Assembly: GCF_000802235.1 (NCBI RefSeq)
Contig: NZ_JTDL01000144.1
Coordinates: 1-64,000, forward strand
Direction of reading: 5' to 3'
DNA: 64,000 nt
Origin: Sinomonas humi
GTDB taxonomy: Bacteria > Actinomycetota > Actinomycetes > Actinomycetales > Micrococcaceae
Below are positions 22,511 through 27,848 of the stretch, in pieces. The notes under the pieces were generated by a model. That model had not been told where the DNA came from. It saw only the letters and a program-made list of their open reading frames with translations, and made no database searches. The position numbers and the translations under genes are program-made. Numbering within the stretch: position 1 is the first letter of the stretch; every line of letters starts with the position of its first letter.

Positions 22511-22816
22511 GTGGAGAGGACACCCGAAACCCACGAAGTACGAGCAGTCGATGCTGGCGCAGAGCTCGAGGTCGCACTGTCGTCGCCCGGCGGGTCCGGC
22601 TACCGGTGGGAGCTCGCCGAGTTGGGCAGGGGAACGGAGCTCGTCACCGAGCGACCGGTAGAACCTTCATCAAGCGCCACTCCGGGTTCAGGCCGCCTCC
22701 AACGATTCGTCCTCAGAGCGGGAGCCGAGTCTGGGGTCGTCACCTTCCAACTCCGGCGCCCGTGGGAACCGCATCCCGTGAGAACTCACGCGGTGGATAT
22801 CAGGGTTCACCCCTGA
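22511..22816 (+). CDS. Chagasin-like cysteine peptidase inhibitor (I42 family)
   Basis: 101 residues that cover almost exactly one I42 domain. The three chagasin loops can be matched: SSPGGSGYRWEL (the NPTTGY-type loop), TPGSGRLQRFVL (the GxG loop), and LRRPWEP (the RPW loop). I42 proteins block papain-like cysteine peptidases. No signal peptide is present, so it would be cytoplasmic. The only in-frame start is GTG 22511, without a good ribosome site. A strong GGGAGG site instead serves GTG 22477 in another frame, so the true N-terminus may be shifted by an indel. Tail-to-tail with the M50 gene (2-base gap). Confidence 0.7.
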   Translation: MERTPETHEVRAVDAGAELEVALSSPGGSGYRWELAELGRGTELVTERPVEPSSSATPGSGRLQRFVLRAGAESGVVTFQLRRPWEPHPVRTHAVDIRVHP

Positions 22817-22818
22817 AC

Positions 22819-23556
22819 CTAGGTGGTGGAGGACCGCTGCCGGGTGGATCGTTCGGCCCGCGCGAGGCTCCAACTCTCTCTAATAGTCGTGCCATCGCCG
22901 AACGGCAGTGCCGCGCAAAGCGCATGGCTGAGGGCCAGTGCGAGCCAGGCGAAGCAGACCAGAGGCAGCCAGGGTGCGACGCGGTCAGCGAACAGCAGCG
23001 GCACAAAGAAGATAGCCATGGCAGCCGGGGCCAACGGCCCAGCAAGGGCAACCGCGCCGTCAGACACCGGCACGAGCCTCATCCGGACGAGATGGCACCG
23101 CATCCCCCGCACGACGAAGATCGCCGGGGCGTCCAGAGGGGCGAGAGCACGGTATGCGACTACATGGCCCGCCTCGTGCACCAGCACCGCGAGCGCAAAG
23201 AGCAGGCCACCCGTGGCAACGGCTACGAGCGAGTGGAGCCCGGTGACGACTCCGATGACGAGGCTCATCGATACAACAGCTGCCCAGCGGGCCTGGCCCT
23301 TCGCCCAGTGGGAAGACACCACCCATACCGAGCGCCTTACACCTCGCGGAAGCACTCGCGCCCGAAACGGTGACGGACCTATCAGCGATCGCCAAGCAGG
23401 GATGTCCTCTTCACTGGCCAGCCCGAGCTCAAGCGTGTCCTGAACGAATCGATCTGAGGAACGAACTGTTTCAATCCCTAGGGAACGGTGCACGAGTCCT
23501 TCTTCTCGAACGGTCACCCCCTCTGTGATGGTGAAACGACTGAGGCCGTCAGACAT
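22819..23556 (-). CDS. M50-family intramembrane zinc metalloprotease
   Basis: 245 residues. HEAGH at 127-131 within a membrane span is the zinc motif; Asp221 in LPFGDGTT is a candidate third ligand and LAGPLAP resembles the conserved loop. The first 75 residues look like the PqqD-like or winged-helix lead seen in M50 proteins of peptide clusters. ATG 23556 overlaps the permease stop by 8 bases, so they are coupled. It is the last gene of the cassette that begins with the 86-residue peptide. By analogy with YydH-type systems it may cleave that peptide in the membrane; this is inference. Confidence 0.8.
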   Translation of the reverse strand: MSDGLSRFTITEGVTVREEGLVHRSLGIETVRSSDRFVQDTLELGLASEEDIPAWRSLIGPSPFRARVLPRGVRRSVWVVSSHWAKGQARWAAVVSMSLVIGVVTGLHSLVAVATGGLLFALAVLVHEAGHVVAYRALAPLDAPAIFVVRGMRCHLVRMRLVPVSDGAVALAGPLAPAAMAIFFVPLLFADRVAPWLPLVCFAWLALALSHALCAALPFGDGTTIRESWSLARAERSTRQRSSTT

Positions 23557-25042
23557 ATCGCGCCGCATTAGGGATCTGCACGGACGCGATCAGGGCATAC
23601 AGTGCGAAGAAAAGCCCCGCCAAGGAGAGCTCCGCAAGCACACCCATCGTGGCTGATGCCGCCGAACCTGCCCAGGCTACGAACATCGAAGAACCGACCA
23701 CCAGCAGGCCAGTCAAGAATCCGGACGCGGCGACGGACAGTCCCTGCTCGTCTGAGTAGGGAGCCAGCGTTCCTCCGAGCAGCGCTGCCCCCAGAACCAA
23801 CGCGGCGCGGATGGAAACGGAGAGCACATCGCTTGCACTCACCATTCCGAGAGCTAGCTCGAAGATCCAGAGGAGTATCGCAACCGAAGCCCCGACGACG
23901 AAGTACGCGACAGCTTTCGGGGCGATCCACCACGACCATGATCCGTGGACCACGGCCCCGAGCCATCGGTACTTCAACGTCCTGCCCACGGCGTACATCG
24001 ACAGTGCAAACGGCACCGCGGGAAGTCCCGACGCAAGCTGCTCCGCAGTAGGCCCCATTCCGCTGAGTGTCCCGAGCCAACGAACGCCGACGACGAGAAG
24101 CACCGCCATGAGCGAGGTGACGATGAACTGGGGCGTGCGGACTGCGATCAAGGCCTCGAACCAAATCGAGGAGAGGAACGCTCCCTGCGGTGGACGTGTA
24201 CCGGTCAGGAGCCTGATCCCACCCGTGGACCCGCTGGAATGACGGAGGCGACCGGCGGTGAGCAGTGCCACAAGCCCGGCCGCCCACCACAGTCCGACTC
24301 CTAGGAGTTGAAAAGGGCCCCCGTGAAGTATGGCCGCGACAGCCAGACGTGTCACGAGAAGGTCTGCGACGCCCCATGGTTGGGCTGTGCCAAGCGGAAG
24401 ATCGCTGCTGAGGGTGAAGACATCCCGGGAGAAGACGCCGAGGCCCACCGCCATCACGAGTGCAGCGGCAGTGGTGACAGCGTACTGATGAGGAATCCTC
24501 AGACGCCGGCTGAGCAAGGAAGACAGGGCCAGGAAGGCCCCGAGCGCGACCATCTGCAACGCCAACATGTTCCCCGCGATGGCGAATAGCGCAGCCACGA
24601 ACGCCAAGGGCTCTAGAACTTGGCGCGCTACGGCAACCACCACCCCTGAGAGCGCGAGGCCAAAGGTGGCGGCGAGGCCAAGAACAGGTACGAGCTGGCC
24701 GACCTGAGACGCCAGCTGCCGCACTGGAAGGAGGTCGACAAGCGACTGGAAGGATGTTCTCGGCGGCAATGAGACGGCCAGGGCAAGGATAGTCAGGAGG
24801 CCGATGACTGAGCTCGACGAGAACGCCGTCCGCAACAACAGCTCCTTCAATTCCGGCGGGTAGACGCCGATCGATGATTGAGTCGCCGCGGCAGCAAGAA
24901 CCAGGCCGAGCGCAACAGCGCTCAGAAACGCCCCCAGCACACCTACAATCACTGCTTTGCTCGATAAATGGAAAAGGGCGGCAAGATCTCGCAGCCACAG
25001 CAGCGTCGAAACGCGCGCGACGGCGCCAAGGGTGGGAAGCAT
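23549..25042 (-). CDS. Multi-span membrane protein, ABC-exporter permease candidate
   Basis: 497 residues from ATG 25042, with some twelve hydrophobic spans and almost no long soluble parts. I recognise no signature beyond the general look of ABC-2-type permeases. It lies 11 bases after the two-span protein and overlaps the M50 gene, in one minus-strand unit with an ABC ATPase, so permease is the natural reading. The ORF could start 28 codons earlier, but that stretch is basic and Cys-rich, without a site. Its codon use is more A/T-rich than that of the flanking core genes. Confidence 0.65.
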   Translation of the reverse strand: MLPTLGAVARVSTLLWLRDLAALFHLSSKAVIVGVLGAFLSAVALGLVLAAAATQSSIGVYPPELKELLLRTAFSSSSVIGLLTILALAVSLPPRTSFQSLVDLLPVRQLASQVGQLVPVLGLAATFGLALSGVVVAVARQVLEPLAFVAALFAIAGNMLALQMVALGAFLALSSLLSRRLRIPHQYAVTTAAALVMAVGLGVFSRDVFTLSSDLPLGTAQPWGVADLLVTRLAVAAILHGGPFQLLGVGLWWAAGLVALLTAGRLRHSSGSTGGIRLLTGTRPPQGAFLSSIWFEALIAVRTPQFIVTSLMAVLLVVGVRWLGTLSGMGPTAEQLASGLPAVPFALSMYAVGRTLKYRWLGAVVHGSWSWWIAPKAVAYFVVGASVAILLWIFELALGMVSASDVLSVSIRAALVLGAALLGGTLAPYSDEQGLSVAASGFLTGLLVVGSSMFVAWAGSAASATMGVLAELSLAGLFFALYALIASVQIPNAARYV

Positions 25043-25053
25043 TTTATCGCACC

Positions 25054-25311
25054 CTATCGACGGCTCCTGGAGGAAGCCCAGACAAAGCAACAGGAAACGA
25101 TCAAAACGACGGCAAGCATTCCCCAAGGACTGGGCGTGAAATTGACTGCTGGCATCCCGTTCTCCTCAGTGATCCAAGCGTCGAAGATGCCGGGCAGATA
25201 GACCCGAACGCCAGTTGCCAACGCGACTGCCAGTGACCCGATCAACATTATTGTGAGCACGGAAAATCCGATCAGCATTCCGCCTAATGCGGAAAGGACA
25301 ATTCGGGTCAT
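25054..25311 (-). CDS. Small two-span membrane protein of the peptide cassette
   Basis: 85 residues with hydrophobic segments at about 4-33 and 63-80, a short outside-facing loop with VYLPGIFDAWITEENG, and a basic end (SSRSRR). Its ATG shares a base with the ATPase stop (TAATG) and it ends 11 bases before the permease, so it is part of the transcription unit. The surrounding DNA is clearly A/T-richer than the rest: 29 of the 60 bases at 25261-25320 are G or C. No family recognised. An exporter accessory or immunity protein would fit the setting. Confidence 0.65.
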   Translation of the reverse strand: MTRIVLSALGGMLIGFSVLTIMLIGSLAVALATGVRVYLPGIFDAWITEENGMPAVNFTPSPWGMLAVVLIVSCCFVWASSRSRR

Positions 25312-26102
25312 TATGACAGCACTCCTCCTGGCAGAACATCCGATGAAAAGAGGGATGAGATGCGCACTTCACGCCGACCGCCCGCCGCACCGAGCCCGGT
25401 GACGGCCAAGAATAGCTCTTCCAAATTTGAGCACCCCTCGCGGCCCTCGATCAGCGCCTGAGGCGCACCTGCTGCGACAATCCGGCCCCGACTGAGGATA
25501 GTTACCTCGTCACACTCGCGTTCCGCTCGCAACAAATCATGGGTTGCAATCAAAACGGTGCGTCCACTCCTCCTGAAGCCGGCGAGGACGCTCCTGAGGA
25601 CAGCAGCGGCATCCGGATCTAAGCCTCTGAACGGTTCATCGAGGATGGCGATCCGCGGTTCGTGGCTCAATGCCGCGATCACCTGAAGTTTCCGCCTCAT
25701 CCCATGTGAGTACTGTCCCACTTGCTTGTCGAGGTCGCCCGTCAAATCGAAGATGTCAGCGAGTTCACGCGCCCGCGCGCGGTCCTCGCGCCTCCTCATG
25801 GCGTGGTGGAAATCCAGGTATTCCTGGCCTGTCAGCGCAACAGGCAAGGGGAGGTCATCGGGGGCGAATCCGAACAATTCGCGGGAACGCTTCTCGGCGA
25901 TCGGAACTCCGGCGATACGAACGGAGCCTTCCGTCGGGGTCACGAGCCCGGTAATGACGTGGAGGCCGGTCGTTTTTCCCGACCCATTCGGTCCCAGAAG
26001 GCCATAGGCCATGCCCGACTCAAGCCGTAGGGTGAAATCGGAAATCGCAAGCCGCTTCCCATACCGCTTAAGGACGCCATCTACCTCCAGAGCGAAAGTC
26101 AT
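25311..26102 (-). CDS. ABC transporter ATP-binding protein
   Basis: 263 residues. Walker A is GPNGSGKTT (about 37-45), the signature is YSHGMRRKLQ, Walker B is IAILDEPFRGLDP, and the switch His is in LIATHD. All elements for ATP hydrolysis are present. ATG 26102 is chosen because the domain starts there (FALEVDGVLKRYG); the longer reading adds a 37-residue unrelated lead. It lies 22 bases downstream of the 86-residue peptide gene and upstream of two membrane proteins, its likely partners. Export of the peptide or of a toxic analogue is inferred. Confidence 0.88.
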   Translation of the reverse strand: MTFALEVDGVLKRYGKRLAISDFTLRLESGMAYGLLGPNGSGKTTGLHVITGLVTPTEGSVRIAGVPIAEKRSRELFGFAPDDLPLPVALTGQEYLDFHHAMRRREDRARARELADIFDLTGDLDKQVGQYSHGMRRKLQVIAALSHEPRIAILDEPFRGLDPDAAAVLRSVLAGFRRSGRTVLIATHDLLRAERECDEVTILSRGRIVAAGAPQALIEGREGCSNLEELFLAVTGLGAAGGRREVRISSLFSSDVLPGGVLS

Positions 26103-26124
26103 TCCAGCCCCCACGTCATTGCCG

Positions 26125-26385
26125 TCAGGCCTTGCAGTAGGCCTTGAACGTCCCGCCGGTGTTCCAGTTCGGGAAATCAAAGGCCGGATACATTCCCCTC
26201 TGCTGGCAAGCAATCCACCACGCGGTCAGGACCCCGAATACCACAATGAGCGCGAGTGGGACGACGATAAAAATCGCCCAGCGATCAGTGCGGTATTGAG
26301 AGGATGCAGCGACTTCCGCCCGCTCGCGAAGGGTCGTCGACAGCGCAGCGCCCGCAGCGGCGCCTTTTGTTATAAGCAGGTTCAT
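26125..26385 (-). CDS. 86-residue single-span peptide, possible precursor of an exported peptide
   Basis: A charged N-terminus (residues 15-36, with RERAEVAASSQYR), one strong membrane span (about 36-59), then a 27-residue tail with Cys60 and Cys84, aromatic and Gly-rich (MYPAFDFPNWNTGG). The positive-inside rule puts the tail outside the cell, where the two Cys could form a disulfide. First gene of the ATPase-permease-M50 unit, with GGGGGAG just before ATG 26385. I recognise no family. It could be a bacteriocin-like or signalling peptide freed by the M50 protease, or simply a membrane subunit. Confidence 0.6.
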   Translation of the reverse strand: MNLLITKGAAAGAALSTTLRERAEVAASSQYRTDRWAIFIVVPLALIVVFGVLTAWWIACQQRGMYPAFDFPNWNTGGTFKAYCKA

Positions 26386-26400
26386 GGCTCCCCCATTCTT

Positions 26401-26424
26401 GGGTTACTTGGTTATGGGTTACTT
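26401..26424 (-). repeat. Repeated AAGTAACCC upstream of the 86-residue peptide
   Basis: On the minus strand AAGTAACCC occurs at 26416-26424 and 26401-26409, spaced 15 bases, just before the peptide's ribosome site. It may be an operator for one of the nearby XRE-like proteins. Confidence 0.45.
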
Positions 26425-26468
26425 CTTGGTTTTCCTGGGGTCGGCTTTTCTAAGACTGTGGGGCAAGC

Positions 26469-26765
26469 TCACTCGGCTCTCTTGCGGTGGGCGACACCTC
26501 CTCCATCTGATGGGGACTCACTCTTCCCGTCCCGCGTAGCACTGCTAGATAAAACGGGGACGAAGAAGACTTCAACGGGCAGGCCTAGAGCCTCGCTGAT
26601 AAGCTGCGCGGTGCGCCGGCTGTTGAGAGACTGCGTCCTCCCAGCGACGAGGTTGTCGATTGTCCCTGGCGCACAGCCGGCGAACTCCGCCAAGGCGCGA
26701 TTCGACCAGCCCTTGCGCGCCATCTGATGGAGCAGGATGTCGCGTGCGACAAGCTTCATGCGCAT
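26469..26765 (-). CDS. XRE-family helix-turn-helix regulator
   Basis: 98 residues with one HTH domain: MARKGWSNRALAEFAGCAPGTIDNLVAGRTQSL gives helices 2 and 3 and the recognition helix (CAPGTIDNLV). The C-terminus is short and polar. ATG 26765 is preferred, since AAGGGGGGTGG lies some eight bases upstream. It is 83 bases upstream of the peptide gene on the same strand and divergent from another XRE-like gene across GTTAGGC repeats. It probably controls the peptide cassette. Confidence 0.75.
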   Translation of the reverse strand: MRMKLVARDILLHQMARKGWSNRALAEFAGCAPGTIDNLVAGRTQSLNSRRTAQLISEALGLPVEVFFVPVLSSSATRDGKSESPSDGGGVAHRKRAE

Positions 26766-26870
26766 CCGACGCGCCACCCCCCTTCGGTACGTCCGAGGCC
26801 CGCCTGCGTTTCCCATTCAATCGGGAGGGTCCAGCGGCGTCAAGGCAAGGGTAATGCTACAAGAAGCAAA

Positions 26871-26953
26871 GATAGGCAAAAGTTAGGCGCGAACTCGGCC
26901 ACTCCTTCTGATAGCAGGTCTTGGGCCGAACGAAAGTTAGGCGGTTGTTAGGC
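26871..26953. promoter_or_regulatory. GTTAGGC repeats between two divergent XRE-like genes
   Basis: GTTAGGC occurs in the same direction at 26882-26888, 26936-26942 and 26947-26953, with a variant GATAGGC at 26871-26877, in the 282-base divergent gap. Flanks are A-rich (AAAGTTAGGC). Direct repeats of this kind often serve as operators for small HTH proteins. Confidence 0.55.
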
Positions 26954-27047
26954 AAACGCAGGGCACATGGGAGCAAACGAGGCCCTGAGCCGCCTAAGAT
27001 TCAGGGGTTGGCAGGACGGCCTTGCAGGACAAATGGAGGGAGCGTGG

Positions 27048-27545
27048 ATGAGCCAGCAGGACCTTGGGTCGCTGCTCGCCGACGTGAAGGCGAACCGCCA
27101 CTGGTCGTATGAGGCTATGTCGCGGGCGTGCGGCGGTGTCCCGACGGGCAAACGACTGTTTCAGCTCATCAACTCGCCGCTCAAGAACTTCCCTGACCCA
27201 GACACGATCAGGGGCCTCCAACGCGCCACGGGAGTAGGCGCCACGGAAATCGTCATGGCAGCCGCGCGCTCGTTGGGCCTGGACGTAGCCGATTCCGACC
27301 CCGATGCCCTGCACATCCCCGGCATTTCGAGCATTCCTGATTCGACGAGAGAAGCCCTGCTCGCCCTCGGGCGAGAAGTCTCGGCCCTCGTCGGCGGGAA
27401 TCTCGGTGAAGTGAGCGAAGTCAGCGAGGCCAGCGACGAGGCGCTTCCCCGAAACTGGAACTCGCTTGCTGCGTATGAGGGCCCCAAAGAGCATCTCGAC
27501 CGCGAACGCGCCTGGGCGAAGCGCGGCGAAGAGCCGCAGGTCTAA
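27048..27545 (+). CDS. XRE-like DNA-binding protein (phage-repressor-like)
   Basis: 165 residues from ATG 27048, with GGAGGG about seven bases upstream. The first 75 residues look like a divergent HTH: LLADVKANRHWSYEAMSRAC, then PTGKRLFQLINSPLKNFPD and DTIRGLQRATGV. The rest is acidic and polar, with SEVSEAS repeats. This arrangement resembles actinobacterial immunity or accessory regulators. It faces the other XRE gene and ends base-to-base against the convergent membrane protein. Target unknown; the GTTAGGC repeats upstream are candidates. Confidence 0.65.
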   Translation: MSQQDLGSLLADVKANRHWSYEAMSRACGGVPTGKRLFQLINSPLKNFPDPDTIRGLQRATGVGATEIVMAAARSLGLDVADSDPDALHIPGISSIPDSTREALLALGREVSALVGGNLGEVSEVSEASDEALPRNWNSLAAYEGPKEHLDRERAWAKRGEEPQV

Positions 27546-27848
27546 CTAACGAGACCCACTCCTCCGACTGAAAAAGCGCAGGAGAAGGCCCAAGGCTACG
27601 AGCCCCAGCCCCAGAAGGACGAAGCCCCCGTACAGGTGGGACTCGTCCTGCGCTGCGGATCGGCACTCGGCCACCCAATCGGTCCCGGGGGGAGCGACGG
27701 CGCTGGCTGGCACCGGGCTGTAGGCAGTGGGGAAGGCTGCACCGCAGTGGGGGCCCACCGGCAGCACAAACCCGAGAACCAAGCCGCACAGTGCGAGGGC
27801 GGCACCGATCCAAAGGTGCCACCGAGGAAAACCCCTCTGGTCAGCCAC
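27546..27848 (-). CDS. Small two-span membrane protein
   Basis: 100 residues from GTG 27848, preceded by GGGAGGG; GTG 27866 is an alternative. There are hydrophobic spans near the N-terminus (LWIGAALALCGLVLGFVLPV) and the C-terminus (GGFVLLGLGLVALGLLLRFF), with a loop between that has two Cys and several Pro. Family not recognised. It starts just upstream of the CAU tRNA's 3' side. Confidence 0.6.
   Translation of the reverse strand: MADQRGFPRWHLWIGAALALCGLVLGFVLPVGPHCGAAFPTAYSPVPASAVAPPGTDWVAECRSAAQDESHLYGGFVLLGLGLVALGLLLRFFSRRSGSR

Follow-up and report, generated by a model that had tools for sequence, protein, structure and literature searches.

The closest described relatives of the gene set analysed here are the TMcins, described only in 2025 and from one Staphylococcus aureus plasmid, pCT545, which carries the TMcin-G1905 cluster (PMC12328743; PMC13252029). 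This cluster encodes a peptide (TmcA), an exporter (TmcBC), a two-span escort protein (TmcE), and a site-2-type protease (TmcP), and the staphylococcal version also includes a putative regulatory operon with a helix-turn-helix (HTH) protein (PMC12328743, PMC13252029). The TMcin-G1905 precursor contains one helix and two universally conserved cysteines; TmcP, which the preprint likens to structure 3b4r, removes an N-terminal leader and the helix is retained in the secreted product (PMC13252029). Work by others on S. aureus G1905 has demonstrated leader removal, the disulfide, export, the requirement for the escort, killing, and pores, the product forming large beta-barrel pores in Gram-positive cells (PMC12328743, PMC13252029). 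According to the discovery paper, the cluster had escaped genome mining, and homologues occur in Bacillota and Actinomycetota in three gene arrangements (PMC12328743); the DsbA-like gene tmcD is missing outside staphylococci, according to the preprint (PMC13252029). We also drew on PMC10885120. Judged by titles, none of the papers listed by our literature search (12 of 361) deals with a Sinomonas bacteriocin, and a search centred on the protease family and the escort protein listed no TMcin paper beyond the two cited.

Here we analyse a cassette of five genes (positions 22819-26385) in a 64,000-nucleotide stretch of a Sinomonas humi contig (NZ_JTDL01000144.1), hereafter the window, and establish its anatomy, conservation, mobility, and profile links to TMcins. 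By analogy with the S. aureus system, the cassette and two accompanying regulators probably form a biosynthetic unit for a TMcin-class bacteriocin (rough probability 0.78), that is, a pore-forming antibacterial peptide whose leader is removed and whose helix is kept in the product. A first-pass annotation had presented the five genes as an uncharacterised set of peptide, exporter, and protease with bacteriocin-like logic and no modification enzyme. All five open reading frames (ORFs) are indeed present, tightly packed on the minus strand, and the bacteriocin-like logic stands, with parts matching the TMcin cluster and no radical S-adenosylmethionine (radical-SAM) enzyme in the unit (six of its seven genes compared with Pfam and NCBIfam, the seventh with PHROGs and PADLOC). 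Nevertheless, the set is not of an uncharacterised kind, because each of its five parts has a counterpart in the TMcin cluster: the kind was already known, and the window cassette is probably a form of it that has diverged strongly and arranges its genes in its own way.

Anatomy of the cassette

The ATPase and two-span genes overlap by 1 base and the permease and protease genes by 20 bases, the two remaining gaps measuring 22 and 11 bases (Table 1). When the five core genes were scanned against Pfam and NCBIfam, the ATPase alone reached the Pfam cut-off. The locus is a real cassette, beyond chance, since nonsynonymous divergence (dN) of the peptide gene from its copy in S. gamaensis (genome G010) is 0.11 against a synonymous divergence (dS) of about 1.9, and 13 further loci carry the same five parts. 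For all six genes compared with G010, dN is far below dS, with the lowest value in the peptide, although dS is near saturation and the ratios are therefore rough; the G010 copy is divided between two contigs, with the break inside the ATPase gene, and the ATPase was compared in part only.

The precursor peptide shows a single hydrophobic span at residues 37-55 by hydropathy (about 36-58) and a tail at residues 60-86, matching the TMcin layout of a single helix and, after it, a C-terminal loop of some 25-28 residues. Cys60 and Cys84, 24 positions apart and predicted to form a disulfide, frame this loop as the two universally conserved TMcin cysteines do, and tryptophans flank the helix on both sides (W36 and W56-57), another TMcin trait, absent in the peptides of relative G349 and of the order-B cassettes described below. 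The first-pass annotation had asked whether the small ORF of such cassettes always carries a central span and a paired-Cys tail, and all 14 intact peptides found do, each with one span, a cysteine at its outer end, and a second cysteine 22-29 positions further on near the C-terminus. Conservation of the tail, on which that annotation also depended, holds for the two cysteines but for little else, very few other positions of the peptide being invariant across groups. The leader presumably comprises residues 1 to about 34, and the predicted mature peptide would have an average mass of about 5937 Da with its disulfide, as computed from the predicted cleavage site.

The window protease carries H131-E132-x-x-H135 and D225; the H-E-x-x-H, G-P, P, and D residues are invariant in all nine aligned proteases, in agreement with the site-2-type HExxH and the distal P and D expected of a TMcin protease. 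A profile of these nine proteases matched, among PDB structures, site-2 protease 3b4r (E-value 2.8e-5) and SpoIVFB (8vjl, E 0.016). Because Pfam yields no match to the window protease at E ≤ 1, its identity rests on the conserved residues and this nine-copy profile; the M50, M50B, and DUF3267 models overlap on these proteases. Its N-terminus carries a soluble stretch of about 75 residues, in which a PqqD-like domain, suspected from a Paraclostridium protease (see below), was not supported, its score of 7.6 lying below the 8.0 that 60 shuffles averaged.

Site-2-type proteases cut within or near membrane spans. This property and the paired cysteines kept in the tail fit the mechanism originally proposed for this locus, in which the protease would cut inside the span and free a soluble Cys60-Cys84 loop from its own anchor. 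However, such a release is very improbable, given that a tail already outside the cell would hardly need an exporter and that the characterised homologue loses its N-terminal leader and is secreted with its helix (PMC13252029).

Hydropathy predicts 11 spans in the window permease (11-13 were counted in its relatives), and the core operon includes, as in TMcin clusters, a two-span protein, predicted to act as the TmcE-like escort. Structure models were of low confidence (mean predicted local distance difference test, pLDDT, of 44.7 for the protease and 40.0 for the permease). The unit itself encodes no oxidase, but a VKOR gene is present in the genome (E 4.0e-38). A role in anti-phage defence was considered and rejected: the peptide, two-span protein, permease, and protease matched no PADLOC family at E ≤ 0.01, and otherwise there were only generic ATPase-domain or HTH matches. 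A daptide-type cluster was likewise considered, from the literature, and set aside.

A small peptide, a membrane HExxH protease, and an ABC (ATP-binding cassette) pair in one operon are also the general logic of the Bacillus subtilis epipeptide system YydFGHIJ/EpeXEPAB (PMC7026026), to which the locus had been likened. That the cassette is an epipeptide relative without the epimerase is nonetheless scarcely credible. The B. subtilis system has a radical-SAM epimerase and a 17-residue product, and the passages describing it mention no two-span escort (PMC7026026); in the window unit the radical-SAM gene is lacking, none of nine proteases scanned reaches the cut-off of the YydH/LiaK family (NCBIfam NF058609; one at E 0.22, the window copy without a match), and the peptide family has a span and two conserved cysteines, with a branch (order C, below) that matches TMcin.

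Table 1. Features of the window cassette and of the unit that contains it.
Feature	Position	Strand	Remarks
TmcA-like precursor peptide	26125..26385	-	86 aa; profile comparison with TMcin-type group, dN/dS
Codon of Cys60, outer end of span	26206..26208	-	Cys here in 14/14 intact peptides
Codon of Cys84, third residue from C-terminus	26134..26136	-	Second Cys within last three residues in 14/14 intact peptides
Predicted mature peptide, residues 35-86, 52 aa	26128..26283	-	Start Arg35 from alignment to TMcin-G1905
TmcB-like ABC ATPase	25311..26102	-	PF00005, E 1.2e-23
TmcE-like two-span protein, 85 aa	25054..25311	-	Two spans; profile-profile 72% to TMcin-type two-span group; escort role predicted
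TmcC-like permease, 497 aa	23549..25042	-	Assigned from position and topology
TmcP-like site-2-type protease, 249 aa	22819..23568	-	Conserved residues and profile
HEAGH zinc site, protease residues 131-135	23164..23178	-
Cro/C1-type HTH regulator, 96 aa, upstream of peptide gene	26469..26759	-	PF01381, E 1.9e-4, below cut-off
Divergent repressor-like regulator	26967..27545	+	phrog_12831 transcriptional repressor, E 8.7e-12
Inserted unit, ~4.7 kb, relative to empty site of Sinomonas G006	22821..27564		blastn

Relatives of the cassette and their links to TMcins

The five-gene set was sought in other actinobacteria, as the first-pass annotation had suggested, and found at 13 further loci in Sinomonas and five other Micrococcaceae genera, in three gene orders. 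Order A, peptide-ATPase-two-span-permease-protease, is that of the window, G010, G135, G349, and G411; order B, peptide-two-span-protease-ATPase-permease, occurs in G049 and G266; and order C, peptide-ATPase-permease-two-span-protease, in G430, G394, a second locus of G007 (G007b), G006, G1115, G1122, and G1135. Applied to 13 loci, among them the window but not G010 with its two contigs, an automatic rule recognised all five parts in 11, failing on the G349 peptide call and on the frameshifted G1122 ATPase. The G349 permease lies in two frames. The G1122 cassette (L162) is broken in its ATPase by a change of frame and in its permease by about 1.2 kb of inserted sequence.

A profile of order-C peptides, built without the Roseburia row (see below), finds TMcin-G1905 at 64.6 bits, the best of 500 shuffles reaching 18.0. 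In profile-profile comparisons, order A matched order C with probabilities of 80.7% for the peptide, 98.2% for the protease, 72.1% for the two-span protein (78 columns), and 100% for the ATPase, against 0.1-0.8% for four cross-family control pairs. None of 120 full column shuffles reached the score observed between the order-A set of five peptides and order C, and the peptides are also linked through order B (A-B 93.7%, B-C 92.3%). We file the window cassette in the TMcin class on its anatomy, its gene content, and these chained profiles, not on direct similarity, and consider it a divergent variant.

Searches with the order-C peptides led to a TmcA-type cluster on a plasmid of Roseburia sp. 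831b, in which two HTH genes stand with genes for the peptide, the two-span protein, and the protease. It is accompanied by a thioredoxin-like membrane protein (recognised by eye), a hypothetical gene, a cysteine desulfurase, and an IS110 element, beyond which lie an ATPase and a 472-aa putative permease; one order-C two-span protein finds its Roseburia counterpart at E 2e-6. The window ATPase matched 1683 plasmid records, one of which (E 5e-42) is the ATPase adjoining a TmcA-like gene of Peribacillus muralis. This plasmid (L168:6965-9455) has TmcA-, TmcB-, and TmcC-like genes, the peptide gene being absent from the PLSDB gene table, itself incomplete. On a plasmid of Paraclostridium bifermentans (L169:8511-9685), an HExxH protease gene with a fused PqqD domain (E 1.2e-13) precedes a two-span ORF with a 4-base overlap, an order as expected if both had been split from one six-span protease; comparison of this ORF with the order-C two-span proteins did not detect it as a TmcE by profile (1.3%).

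Several results weigh against assigning the window cassette to the TMcins. Compared directly with TMcin-G1905, the three window-type peptides alone score 4.8 bits, equalled by 39 of 500 shuffles, and the five-peptide order-A set 12.3 bits, equalled by 1 of 500; against the TMcin-type group the three peptides reach 63.4%, over columns 28-65 only, that is, the helix and the first tail residues. With shuffling confined to the tail columns, 2 of 120 trials matched the real score, which places much of the peptide signal in the helix; the window tail contains prolines and no F-T-G-x-W stretch such as that of TMcin-G1905. As for the TmcBC pair, an ATPase with a 12-span permease, the window ATPase is clear but its permease has 11 predicted spans and no detected homology to those of order C (0.2%) or to that of Peribacillus (0.4%). 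Likewise, the order-B two-span protein reaches 0.4% with its order-C counterpart, and that of order A 0.1% with the Paraclostridium one. The window protease has no match at E ≤ 1 to PF11667 (DUF3267), the family that holds TmcP, which is matched, in all cases below the cut-off, by the proteases of G007 (E 0.018), G430 (E 3.1e-4), and Roseburia (E 2.2e-5). Finally, no HExxH membrane ORF was found in the 14 kb examined of the Peribacillus plasmid, so in Bacillota the five parts are not always linked. The Micrococcaceae loci give no peptide homologue without protease or ABC partners, which the first-pass annotation had named as a refutation, but on this plasmid the peptide has only the ABC pair beside it in the stretch examined.

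The divergence of the tail is also compatible with a TMcin-derived cassette that has changed its job, in which the exported peptide would not kill but act as a signal or self-regulator, with the regulators or the ABC complex as its sensors. In the window subgroup the tail is remote from that of TMcin-G1905 and lacks the pattern just mentioned, the peptide changes more slowly than any other part (dN 0.11), as expected for a component recognised by kin, and two regulators travel with it. However, the unit encodes no receptor-like protein, and its processing and export parts are those of the cluster of a pore-former. The regulators beside the cassettes also vary (judged by eye), with a LysR-like ORF upstream in G006 and G007b and response-regulator and kinase ORFs downstream in G049, and we regard a signalling role as unlikely. 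It is possible, if doubtful, that the window subgroup and order B constitute a separate branch, sharing the same membrane assembly line but with a loop that no longer builds the TMcin beta-barrel, so that they would have a different pore, a different target, or a signalling role.

The window protease matched 6 of 118 genomes (its own included), three of them Sinomonas; another, G049, belongs to a different Micrococcaceae genus and has a full cassette, and around two longer proteases no ABC match was found in the stretches examined. The protease profile matched 265 of 395 family genomes at E ≤ 0.01, most of the matches listed being longer (~340-650 aa) and of housekeeping type. Inspection of the best and some short matches yielded the cassettes of G135, G266, and G349; beside the short proteases of G378, G146, G217, G257, G163, and G181, no cassette-type ABC gene was found. 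At the order level this profile matched 46 of 396 genomes at E ≤ 1e-5, without any ABC match in the 29 loci scanned. The peptide profile matched 74 of 385 family genomes at E ≤ 0.1, and the six matches below 1e-30 were all cassettes. Among the weak matches with loci examined, those of G411, G430, G394, and the second G007 locus adjoin the same partner genes; L137, L138, and L147 likewise have a nearby ABC-like match, 28-50% identical. With a profile of the G430, G394, and G007 peptides, matches came from G007 and G006 among 15 Sinomonas genomes and from G430, G1115, G1122, and G1135 among 44 genomes in the genus of G430. At the class level the peptide profile matched 1 of 394 genomes, that of the window. 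There was no match in 72,556 plasmid records to the window protease, peptide, or permease or to the order-B protease, nor in viral contigs to two single-peptide queries, a search that left aside the phage-record collection. Order C was borderline with the mixed profile (E ~0.01), and the peptide searches may therefore have passed over cassettes of greater divergence or peptides standing alone.

A mobile unit in Sinomonas

Blastn similarity between the window and Sinomonas G006 ends at window position 22820 and restarts at 27565, with 47 bases in between in G006; the insert therefore consists of the five genes and two regulator genes. The unit is thus larger than originally described, the two regulators travelling with the cassette, and it moves as one mobile gene set. 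At the corresponding chromosomal place, G006 and G002 have no cassette gene, and the HTH regulator, which accompanies the cassette or its remnants in G010, G007, and G009, was not found at these two loci; the divergent repressor-like gene co-occurs with the cassette in the same genomes. One genus thereby shows intact, decaying, and absent states. In the orthologous copy of G007, the peptide stops after 37 residues, a frameshift leaves the permease in two frames, and the first glycine of the Walker A motif is replaced by arginine, whereas G009 retains remnants only.

The broken unit of G007 and the remnants of G009 raise the question of whether the window copy is itself decaying or silent and kept by chance, a state that would be compatible with the TMcin explanation for the family as a whole. 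We deem this quite unlikely for the window strain, in which all ORFs are intact and dN lies well below dS in the six genes compared with G010.

Next to the cassette, a chagasin-family (I42) protease-inhibitor gene (22511-22816, plus strand; PF09394, E 1e-10, above the cut-off), matched in 6 of 15 Sinomonas genomes, was considered as a further part and rejected: it adjoins an acyl-CoA dehydrogenase gene also at the cassette-free sites of G006 and G002 and belongs to the chromosome, not to the inserted unit. The G135 cassette fills a whole contig of 4220 bases (L081) whose ends are 128-base inverted copies (99%), transposase-like by eye; these ends reflect either composite-transposon-like carriage or an assembly edge.

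Proposed function and comparison with known systems

The Sinomonas copy presumably acts like the TMcin of S. aureus G1905. The 86-residue precursor would enter the producer membrane with its N-terminus inside and its tail outside, where a general oxidase, possibly the VKOR protein, would join Cys60 and Cys84. The two-span protein may then hold the precursor and present it to the site-2-type protease, which would cut near residues 34-35, taking off the leader so that the product keeps its helix. The ATPase/permease pair would extract the resulting helix-plus-loop peptide of about 52 residues from the membrane, and the released peptide could diffuse to neighbouring Gram-positive cells and oligomerise into pores, the two regulators probably controlling expression of the whole set.

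Direct comparison with the TMcin-G1905 peptide misses the window subgroup, yet all five parts are kept. Such cassettes from soil actinobacteria are natural variants for testing which parts of the loop, escort, and protease are needed, and are useful for finding new antibacterial pores.

Among the closest systems, the order-C cassettes share the same five parts with the window, and their peptides and that of Roseburia are TMcin-type by profile; they differ in gene order and in the F-[TS]-G stretch of the order-C tail, which the window peptide lacks, whereas the Roseburia cluster differs in having its ATPase and putative permease beyond the IS110 element. An HTH regulator is found in the window, Roseburia, and staphylococcal clusters and precedes the peptide gene in the first two. 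Compared with TMcin-G1905 itself, the window unit has no DsbA-like tmcD, and its order, with the peptide gene first and the protease gene last, contrasts with the published core operon, which begins with tmcB, ends with tmcA, and has the protease gene in fourth place. The window peptide, permease, and protease are strongly diverged, the leader is shorter (about 34 residues against 45 in G1905), and the protease has the additional soluble N-terminal stretch. By contrast, both systems combine an ATPase, a permease (12 spans published, 11 predicted in the window), a two-span protein, and a site-2-type HExxH protease with a peptide of one helix and two cysteines about 25 residues apart (C25 and C50 in TMcin-G1905, 24 apart in the window), and the 52-residue product predicted for the window has the same length as TMcin-G1905.

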